Source: Actinomycetota bacterium
Lineage (GTDB): Bacteria > Actinomycetota > Acidimicrobiia > Acidimicrobiales > Acidimicrobilacustridaceae
Assembly (NCBI GenBank): GCA_005787345.1
Contig: SYBH01000048.1
Span: 1 to 38,973 of the forward strand
Direction of reading: 5' to 3'
Length of the DNA: 38,973 nucleotides
Shown: positions 2,814 to 27,228 of the stretch, piece after piece
Position numbering within the stretch: position 1 is the first letter of the stretch
Layout: each line of letters begins with the position of its first letter
Program-made: the position numbers and the translations under genes
The notes under the pieces: model-generated
Told to the model about the DNA's origin: nothing
The model's input: the letters and a program-made list of their open reading frames with translations, nothing else
The model's database searches: none

Positions 2814-3785
2814 TCAGTCGACGCGATTGCGAAGTTCACTGATCCAGTCCGAGGCCTTGGACTGGGCATCGGCCACTTCCTGGCGAAGGGCATGGCCTCG
2901 TTCGCCGGCGGCGGGATAGGAACCCATGAACTTCACTTCGGCGTGCTTGGACTTCAGCGAACGCAGTGCGTCGGCCACAACCTCATCGGCGATATGGCCT
3001 TCAAGATCAATAAGAAAGCAGTAGTCGCCAAGGCCGCGACGCGTTGGGCGTGACTCAAGCTTGGTGAGGTTGATCCCGCGAGCGGCGAACTCTTGAAGGA
3101 TTGACAACAACGAACCGGGTTCGTCGGCGCGCTGGAAAACGACGATGGAAGTTTTGTCATGCCCGGTTGGTGCGGGGATCGTCTTCGGTGCAACGAGCAC
3201 AAAGCGTGTTGCGTTGTCATCGTGATCCTCAATGGCGTGGGCAAGAACGTTGAGCCCGTACACCTCGGCGGCGCGCGCAGGGGCAATGGCGGCACCGTTT
3301 GTGGCGAGTGCATCGGTGGCTTCGGCCAACATGCGCGCGGCTTCGGCGGTCGAGTTGGATGCCTCGGAAACTGCGTTTGGAAGATTCGCGTTCAAGTACT
3401 TGCGACATTGCGCAAGGGCGTGCGGGTATGACCACACCTGCGAGATGTCTTCGAGCTTCACACCAGATCGGGCCATCAGTTCAAGATGAATGGGCAGCAC
3501 GATTTCGCGTTGAATGAGCAGATCGGAATCAAACGCGAGCGCGTCTTGGGTGATGTTGACCGTGCCCTCGATGGCATTCTCGAGCGCAAGGAAGGCGTAA
3601 TCGACCTTGCCGTCTTCAGCGGCGCTCAGGACGTTGGCAAAGGTGTCGATCGGGCGCAGGTTGGCCGTGGCGAGATCGGCCTGGCTTAACAGCGCCTGTT
3701 CAGAGAACGTGCCGATGGGACCAAGGAAGGCGATCGTGCGGCGGGTCCAGTCGGTGCCGGTTGCTGGTGCTGCGGATGAGGTCAC
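2814..3785 (-). CDS. pheA: Prephenate dehydratase
   Basis: Converts prephenate to phenylpyruvate in phenylalanine synthesis. The 323-residue protein has a periplasmic-binding-like catalytic domain (about 16-200) opening with TIAFLGPIGTFSEQAL and carrying the catalytic Thr-Arg-Phe at 193-195 (DNATRFVLVAPK). A C-terminal ACT domain (about 211-290) has the phenylalanine-binding motif ESRP at 244-247, so feedback inhibition by Phe is expected. No chorismate mutase domain is present. The start is GTG at 3785. No other start lies close before the conserved first strand, and the longer open frame would run into larB. A TATCCT box 8 bases before the GTG suggests a leaderless mRNA. Confidence 0.94.
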   Translation of the reverse strand: MTSSAAPATGTDWTRRTIAFLGPIGTFSEQALLSQADLATANLRPIDTFANVLSAAEDGKVDYAFLALENAIEGTVNITQDALAFDSDLLIQREIVLPIHLELMARSGVKLEDISQVWSYPHALAQCRKYLNANLPNAVSEASNSTAEAARMLAEATDALATNGAAIAPARAAEVYGLNVLAHAIEDHDDNATRFVLVAPKTIPAPTGHDKTSIVVFQRADEPGSLLSILQEFAARGINLTKLESRPTRRGLGDYCFLIDLEGHIADEVVADALRSLKSKHAEVKFMGSYPAAGERGHALRQEVADAQSKASDWISELRNRVD

Positions 3786-24931: not shown

Positions 24932-26485
24932 GTGAGCAAGATGCGTCGCTACGAGGTCACTGCTGCTGGTGATTTCGCTTCGGTGCTTGCCGTGCTTACC
25001 GACCACCTCGGACTGCGCCTCCTCAGCCTTGATGAAGGCCAGCGCAGTTGGCTCGACACTCCTGCCGGCACGCTCGAACGGGCCGAGACCACGCTCGAAT
25101 TCCGCCGGCCTTCGGGCGATGGAACGCCGACGCTCACATGGGCGGCCGAGGGTCGAGTGCTCGTGCACGACCCGTGTGTGTCGTCCACTCCGCCAGTGCA
25201 GTCCAGCGAGCTTCCTGATTCCCCAGCATTTGCGAGGCTGGCCACGTTGGTCGACGGAGGCGAGTTGGTTGCCGGTCCAACGGTGAACTCCCAGATCGCA
25301 GTATTGGCGTGTCTTGACGATGAAGAGAAGACCACTGCGCGAATCATCTTTGATCGCTCCGAAACTATCGATGGCATCACGCTGCCGATGCTGCTCGAAG
25401 TCCTGCCGCTACGGGGCTACGAAGACGAAGCATCGGCGCTCGAAAAGAAACTGAAGCGCAGCGTCGCACTTTCTGCGTCGGTGACTCCCATGAGGGAACT
25501 CGCGCAACAAGGTGCGAGCGAGGGACGCGGTGCGGGTAGTGGGGAAGACGGCGCTGCACTCGTGCCCACAATGTCGGCAGCGAGCGCATGGCGTGCCGTC
25601 TTCCAAGATCTCAGCGATGCCATCACGAAATCGTTTTCGGGTGTGCTGAGCGGTAATGACCCAGAAGATCTGCACGCGTTTCGCGTAGCGGTTCGGCGCA
25701 TCCGAACAATTTTGCAAGATGGCGACGACGTTGTTGACCCAGAATCTCGCGATCGGTTCCGTCATGAGTATCGCTGGCTCGGCGATGTCACGACACCAAC
25801 CCGTGATGCCGATGTGCATCTCATTGAATTCCCGGAACTCGCAGCGACGCTCCCGCCGTCGCGTCGCGAAGAACTCGTCCCATTCAAGGGGATTCTCGAA
25901 CGTCACCGAGCCGATTGCCACGCTGCAATGACGGTAGAACTGCGCTCAATGCGTCGTGCTGAATTCGGAACTGCGTGGCTTTCGTTCCTTGCCGATGACG
26001 ACGCTTGGACTGGTTGTGGCGATCTCGCCGACGAACCCGTGCTCCGGATTGTTTTGCGCCGTGTCGAGAAGGCGAACCGGCAGCTGGTAAAGAACGGCCG
26101 AAAGATTTCAAAAAAGTCACCGGCAATTGCTTTGCATGAACTTCGTAAAGAAGGAAAGCGACTCCGGTATTTGTTGGAGTGCTTTTCCCCCTTGTTTAAC
26201 GAGAAGGCATTGGCAACGATTCTGCGTCCGCTGCGCGATGTGCAAGATGACCTGGGCGAATTCCAAGACACTGAGGTGCAGGCCAACGCGTTACTCGAAC
26301 TTGCCGGCGAACTCGAAGGGGCTGACGACCATTCTGCCCTCATGGCCATTGGCGGAGTTATCGAACAACTTGGAGTTCGAGGCGCCGAAGCCCGAGCATC
26401 GTTCTCAAAAACTTTTGGTCAATTCGACAATCGAAAAGTGCAGCGAGCCTTTGATCAACTAGAGCCCCGAAAGAAGAAGCGATGA
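24932..26485 (+). CDS. CYTH and CHAD domain protein
   Basis: A 517-residue two-domain protein. Residues about 4-190 resemble a CYTH (triphosphate tunnel) domain: RYEVTAAG, LRLLSLDEGQRSWLDTPAG, ETTLEFRRP and the late strand LLEVLPLRGYEDEA. The opening ExExK motif is reduced to a single Glu (RRYEV), so catalysis is doubtful. A Gly/Glu-rich linker (about 193-212) leads to a CHAD domain (about 220-515) with the conserved His helices LHAFRVAVRRIRTIL (H248) and LHELRKEGKRLRYLLE (H402), basic helices that bind polyphosphate in known CHAD proteins. E. coli YgiF has the same order. The stop overlaps the parA-like start (ATGA), which is unusual company for this family. Confidence 0.88.
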   Translation: MSKMRRYEVTAAGDFASVLAVLTDHLGLRLLSLDEGQRSWLDTPAGTLERAETTLEFRRPSGDGTPTLTWAAEGRVLVHDPCVSSTPPVQSSELPDSPAFARLATLVDGGELVAGPTVNSQIAVLACLDDEEKTTARIIFDRSETIDGITLPMLLEVLPLRGYEDEASALEKKLKRSVALSASVTPMRELAQQGASEGRGAGSGEDGAALVPTMSAASAWRAVFQDLSDAITKSFSGVLSGNDPEDLHAFRVAVRRIRTILQDGDDVVDPESRDRFRHEYRWLGDVTTPTRDADVHLIEFPELAATLPPSRREELVPFKGILERHRADCHAAMTVELRSMRRAEFGTAWLSFLADDDAWTGCGDLADEPVLRIVLRRVEKANRQLVKNGRKISKKSPAIALHELRKEGKRLRYLLECFSPLFNEKALATILRPLRDVQDDLGEFQDTEVQANALLELAGELEGADDHSALMAIGGVIEQLGVRGAEARASFSKTFGQFDNRKVQRAFDQLEPRKKKR

Positions 26486-27228
26486 AGGTTCTTGCCACCT
26501 ACAACATCAAAGGTGGAGTCGGGAAAACTGCAACTGCGGTGAATCTTGCTCACGTTGCTGCTGCCCACGGAAATCGCGTTCTCGTTTGGGACCTCGATCC
26601 CCAGGGGGCGGCAACGTTCTATTTTCGGGTGAAGCCAAAGGTGAAGGGCGGCGGAAAAGCCATCGTTCGCGGTTCACTTGAACTTGGCGATGCCATCAAA
26701 GCCACCGACTTCGACAATCTCGATCTTGTGCCCGCTGACTTTTCTTATCGCCATCTCGATCTTTGGCTCGACGATGCCAAGAAGCCGCTTGTTCGCATCC
26801 GGCGCGCGCTTCGTCAGGTTTCCGAAGAGTACGACTATGTGTTTCTTGATTGTCCGCCGAGCATTTCGCTTACGTCCGAAAGCGTGTTTCGTGCCGCCGA
26901 TGCCCTGCTCGTGCCAACAATTCCCACGACACTGTCGCTGCGTACCTACGAACAACTTGATCGTTTCGTCGAGGAAAACCCCGACATGGTTCGCGAACTC
27001 AAGATCCTCGGATTTTTCTCGATGGTCGATCGTCATAAACGGTTGCATCGACGGTTTATGAACGACCTCCGTGCGGCACATCCCGAGTTACTCGAAGCAA
27101 CGATTCCCAACTCCACCGACATTGAGCGCATGGGTGTCCATCGTGAACCAGTCGGCGCCTACGGCAAAGGCAGCAAACCCGCACGCGCTTATGAAGCGCT
27201 GTGGTCGGAAATCCAGACTCGTCTCTAA
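26482..27228 (+). CDS. ParA/MinD-family ATPase
   Basis: A 248-residue ParA-type P-loop ATPase. Deviant Walker A with the signature lysine, IKGGVGKTATAVNLA (K10 and K15); Walker A' LVWDLDPQGAAT (D37, D39); Walker B YVFLDCPPS (D123). It has no N-terminal DNA-binding extension, and no parB, parS-like repeat or partition locus is nearby, so plasmid or chromosome segregation is unlikely. Small ParA proteins of this kind position cargo such as carboxysomes (McdA) or chemoreceptor clusters. Its start overlaps the CYTH-CHAD stop, so the likely partner is that protein. The next gene, gluQ, begins 13 bases downstream. Confidence 0.9.
   Translation: MKVLATYNIKGGVGKTATAVNLAHVAAAHGNRVLVWDLDPQGAATFYFRVKPKVKGGGKAIVRGSLELGDAIKATDFDNLDLVPADFSYRHLDLWLDDAKKPLVRIRRALRQVSEEYDYVFLDCPPSISLTSESVFRAADALLVPTIPTTLSLRTYEQLDRFVEENPDMVRELKILGFFSMVDRHKRLHRRFMNDLRAAHPELLEATIPNSTDIERMGVHREPVGAYGKGSKPARAYEALWSEIQTRL

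Follow-up and report, generated by a model that had tools for sequence, protein, structure and literature searches.

What does a ParA-type ATPase act on when its neighbouring gene encodes a CHAD protein and not ParB? The question is raised by a gene pair in the window, by which we mean the whole 38,973-nucleotide stretch of Actinomycetota DNA analysed here. The pair is flanked by genes for DUF1295, a GluQ-RS-like synthetase, DUF4031 and an RF-1-domain protein (Pfam scan), and has the following features.

24932..26485, + strand: pseudo-CYTH-CHAD gene (GTG start, 517 aa), proposed polyphosphate (polyP)-granule adaptor
24932..25486, + strand: degenerate CYTH/TTM domain, approximately residues 1-185 (TTM fold by Foldseek; ExExK lost)
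25487..25576, + strand: segment joining CYTH to CHAD, approximately residues 186-215 (AF2; residues 200-206 least confident, pLDDT <50)
25601..26293, + strand: CHAD domain, polyP-binding module, residues 224-454 (Pfam PF05235, E=1.7e-47)
26482..26485, + strand: ATGA stop/start overlap of the two genes (sequence)
26482..27228, + strand: ParA-type ATPase gene (ATG start, 248 aa; Pfam AAA_31 and AF2 match to Soj/ParA)
26509..26529, + strand: deviant Walker A motif KGGVGKT with signature lysine K10 (sequence; conservation in 52 ParAs)
26623..26652, + strand: clade signature FRVKPKVKGG, residues 48-57 (conservation in 52 ParAs; profile alignment to Soj)
27028..27051, + strand: conserved basic stretch DRHKRLHR, residues 183-190, candidate DNA contact (profile alignment and conservation)

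A first-pass annotation had described a CYTH-CHAD gene ending in an ATGA that starts a 248-residue ParA with intact Walker motifs and signature lysine, and no parB nearby. Open reading frames and sequence agree on the junction, which probably couples translation of the two genes; the motifs are borne out by the sequence and by their invariance in 52 homologues; and the Pfam scan of the flanking genes gave no parB of the kind that adjoins parA in ParABS loci.

The gene pair is conserved across phyla

A profile scan of genome contigs with this ParA yielded 80 loci, whose titles name Actinomycetota, several proteobacterial groups and Acidobacteriota. CHAD lies directly upstream of ParA in 60 of the 80, with a gap of ≤20 bp in 53, so the adjacency is not limited to one genome. 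The two genes overlap in 39 of the 80 loci (by 4 nt in 30 and by 1 nt in 9), and the 4-nt overlap seen in the window is found in 40 of 75 adjacent loci. Within the same class as the window, 13 of 148 genomes have a ParA match at E≤1e-40; CHAD adjoins all five of the nearest hits (≥57% identity) and none of the looser ones. Of the 16 ParA matches that score best (E≤1e-80) in an Actinomycetota sample, 13 likewise adjoin CHAD. This ParA is carried by 68 of 398 Pseudomonadota genomes, with at least six adjacent pairs among the CHAD matches listed for these 68. CHAD was present in 57 of the 68 genomes with ParA and in 139 of the 330 without it (Fisher p=1e-10, uncorrected for relatedness); in the remaining 11 ParA-positive genomes no CHAD was seen. 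Named strains with the pair include Methylotuvimicrobium buryatense 5G (L074), Methylomonas lenta (L065) and Nitrosomonas marina Nm22 (L117).

In a quick ParA tree of 143 rows, with many weak inner forks and some long branches flagged, the CHAD-adjacent loci all fall in one 128-row group whose early branches are CHAD-adjacent. Chance adjacency of CHAD and ParA was considered and rejected on the overlap frequency, the co-occurrence and this tree. The CHAD-ParA pair is well supported as a real, old and functionally linked module. A tree of CHAD domains (158 rows) separates linked and remote pseudo-CYTH CHADs from all others with three label changes, and the ParA-linked CHADs form nearly one clade.

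Non-adjacent ParAs nested in the 128-row group come from methanotrophs and from a 17-row proteobacterial subclade. Among 17 genomes with ParA parted from CHAD, 14 have CHAD elsewhere, in all 14 cases of the pseudo-CYTH type, and in methanotrophs with broken adjacency this type usually persists elsewhere in the genome. For the 17-row subclade, the best CHAD match per genome, taken from 15 genomes, is of a different, stand-alone type. Since this subclade keeps ParA apart and with another type of CHAD, it counts against strict dependence of ParA on CHAD. We also considered the basic N-terminal tails of stand-alone CHADs as ParA-partner tails and rejected them because ParA-negative genomes have such tails too.

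The window's own genome has two further ParA-like matches. One, on contig C57, is 29% identical to the window ParA, is followed by a ParB-like ORF (recognised by sequence, without a domain scan) and is separate on the tree, so the window ParA does not group with its genome's parB-linked ParA. The other is a frame on contig C137 (L180, 278-1132, +), with no obvious partner within the 3 kb inspected.

A degenerate CYTH domain precedes an intact CHAD domain

The AF2 model of the CYTH-CHAD protein is confident (mean pLDDT 91.7). Its CYTH half has no Pfam match but adopts a triphosphate-tunnel fold, with Foldseek matches to TTM structures. The ExExK motif is absent from this half, whose N-terminus reads MSKMRRYEVTA. 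The first-pass annotation had remarked on a partial loss of this motif here; the loss extends to every complete ParA-linked CYTH domain (ExExK in 0 of 61), and a relaxed acidic-x-acidic-x-basic pattern occurs in 7 of the 61 within a fixed N-terminal stretch. By comparison, among unlinked CYTH-CHADs, 20 have a CYTH strand that can be recognised; a script found ExExK in 16 of these, and EREIK is visible in two more. E. coli YgiF, a catalytic CYTH-CHAD protein with the same domain order that the fold search also retrieved (structure 5a60), differs from all complete ParA-linked members in this respect.

The CHAD domain has kept its ligand contacts. According to the available text of a Chlorobium study and the work cited there (PMC6537752), polyP is a ligand of CHAD domains, and proteins with this domain are located on granules; that text also reports that mutating His253, Arg256, Arg260, Arg296 or Arg418/Tyr419 of the Chlorobium protein lowers polyP binding (PMC6537752). 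By pattern and alignment, the counterparts in the window protein are H248, R251, R255, R291, R412 and Y413, all six invariant in 71 CHAD sequences. The polyP-contact residues of the CHAD central pore, a mark of phosins, are thus in place, and the AF2 model matches the CHAD-polyP crystal structure 6qva with a TM-score of 0.89 (target length).

Known ParA/MinD partners are described, in the accessible part of one report, as having a disordered, positively charged N-terminus (PMC10241942). The CHAD protein has no such feature in the AF2 model, where residues 1-10 have a mean pLDDT of 86 and residues 5-9 form a strand. Separately, a motif GRxPxDYSSKL precedes CHAD in many ParA-linked and remote proteins (e.g. 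L062, L065, L103, L107 and L162); it was found neither in 26 unlinked CHADs nor in the window's own protein.

The ATPase is intact and has lost two DNA-contact lysines

The 248-aa protein matches Pfam AAA_31 (ParA-type; E=1.6e-35). Its Walker A' motif (DLDPQG) is intact, and 52 ParA homologues show no variation at K10, G11, G12, G14, K15, T16, D37, D39, Q41 or D123. Structure searches with the AF2 model (mean pLDDT 85.1; Walker A loop 11-14 poorly modelled) rank Soj/ParA best, then McdA, with BcsQ lower.

Two surfaces bear on what this ATPase might contact. The signature FRxKPKVKGG is near-invariant in the clade (52 ParAs) and aligns with loop L23 of Helicobacter pylori ParA (HpParA), in which Phe52, Arg53 and Lys56 are reported to contact a ParB peptide (PMC11229316, available portion); by this alignment, the loop is perhaps a docking site for the partner. 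As for DNA, HpParA contact residues K227 and K230 align with window positions 210 and 213, which are basic in 0 of 52 ParAs, so that two of the four Soj DNA-contact lysines are lost throughout and nucleoid binding by ParA is not assured. HpParA K199 aligns with position 190, which is basic in 39 of 52 and has other basic residues nearby, and the counterpart of K247 is uncertain.

PolyP genes neighbour the pair

A PPK1 gene lies near five ParA loci, four of them adjacent CHAD-ParA pairs, and a PPX gene near one; in the window's own genome, PPK1 is on a different contig from the pair. Genes for SixA-like phosphatases, named by sequence resemblance, occur near about 12 loci, including L074, L099, L101, L114, L117, L119 and L123. 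The link to polyP drawn in the first-pass annotation is strengthened by these PPK1 and SixA neighbours together with the invariant polyP-contact residues, and it is likely that the pair concerns polyP.

Positioning of polyP granules is the most plausible role

McdA and McdB position carboxysomes. The pair resembles them in having a ParA-family ATPase, with an intact deviant Walker motif, beside a conserved partner gene other than parB, the ATPase presumably serving a protein-marked cargo. We consider a model in which the CHAD protein would coat polyP granules; either its dead CYTH domain or the stretch that precedes CHAD would dock on dimeric ParA, with the FRxKPKVKGG loop as a possible site; the docked protein would stimulate ATP hydrolysis by ParA; and a gradient of nucleoid-bound ParA-ATP would space the granules or divide them between daughters. 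Adjacency, gene overlap, co-occurrence, grouping on the trees, retention of the pseudo-CYTH CHAD, loss of ExExK, PPK1/SixA neighbours and binding of polyP by CHAD together argue for such a positioning or segregation module, while the lost DNA-contact lysines, the lack of a disordered basic N-terminus and the ParAs apart from CHAD in Pseudomonadota raise doubts. On balance, granule positioning is the most plausible mechanism for the pair. We give an McdAB-like system, in which granules are coated by CHAD and positioned or segregated by ParA, about an even chance of being correct; the wider proposal of a widespread ParA system with the polyP granule as cargo, in which CYTH, formerly an enzyme, now serves as a docking module for ParA, is more tentative and somewhat less probable.

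The most serious alternative casts ParA as a regulator with no part in positioning: bound to the CHAD protein, it would act as an ATP switch over the synthesis or breakdown of polyP, a role comparable to that of BcsQ for cellulose synthase. Such a regulator would suit the PPK1 and SixA neighbours, a folD-ppk-parA-CHAD arrangement in Acidithiobacillus (below) and the loss of two Soj DNA-contact lysines. However, by fold and by profile the ATPase comes nearest to Soj/ParA, BcsQ standing lower in the ranking, and a dead CYTH makes it less likely that the adaptor itself acts as an enzyme; we regard this reading as unlikely, though not negligible. Alternatively, DNA-bound ParA dimers might statically anchor CHAD-coated granules to the nucleoid, with no gradient. 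The precedent is AlgP of Pseudomonas aeruginosa, which spaces polyP granules and organises them on the nucleoid according to the accessible text of a review (PMC13052382); AlgP is a histone-like DNA-binding protein with no ATPase. The ATPase motif residues invariant in 52 homologues would be needless for a static tether, and we consider this reading quite improbable. That the genes have no functional link, being remains of an old operon, and ParA serves another cargo, as the 17-row proteobacterial subclade (not CHAD-adjacent, with its stand-alone type of CHAD) might suggest, is very improbable: the genes adjoin across phyla, often overlap and co-occur, and where they have separated the same CHAD type has been kept.

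The pair differs from described systems in several ways. Whereas McdA works with McdB, the adaptor proposed here is a polyP-binding CHAD protein that lacks the disordered basic N-terminus; in the fold search, McdA structures come after Soj. Chromosomal ParABS (Soj/Spo0J) provides the closest solved relatives of the ATPase, yet the window ParA has no adjoining parB, is tree-separate from its genome's parB-linked ParA and lacks the two DNA-contact lysines. A similar gene content is that of the folD-ppk-parA-CHAD cluster reported as conserved in Acidithiobacillus (PMC10892726, PMC6416229), in which, by the published description, parA adjoins a CYTH-CHAD gene and ppk is present. The first-pass annotation knew of no described system with this pairing; the pairing itself had been reported there, whereas the available text of those papers gives ParA no positioning role and describes the CYTH active-site residues as conserved.

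In our literature search, with subscription papers and preprints mostly outside it, no paper put forward a ParA system for polyP granules. According to the accessible part of a 2025 review, it is unknown whether placing polyP granules costs ATP and, in Caulobacter, which proteins do the placing (PMC13052382). The pair offers a conserved two-gene candidate for ATP-dependent granule placement and, if the proposal is true, a case of an enzyme domain (CYTH) reused as a cargo adaptor.

Other gene arrangements

Several loci show further arrangements. In Methylobacter-type methanotrophs (L063, L064, L068, L071, L075 and L077), ParA is parted from CHAD and followed by a glycogen phosphorylase-like gene (named from sequence, without a domain scan), and L118 has CHAD, ParA, PPK1 and a glycogen phosphorylase-like gene in one row. 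In L055, a ParA-like frame (2893-3537, -) lies upstream of a CYTH-CHAD frame (1363-2865, -) with intact ExExK; this ParA-like frame falls outside the clade and aligns poorly at Walker A, and may represent a second, independent pairing.
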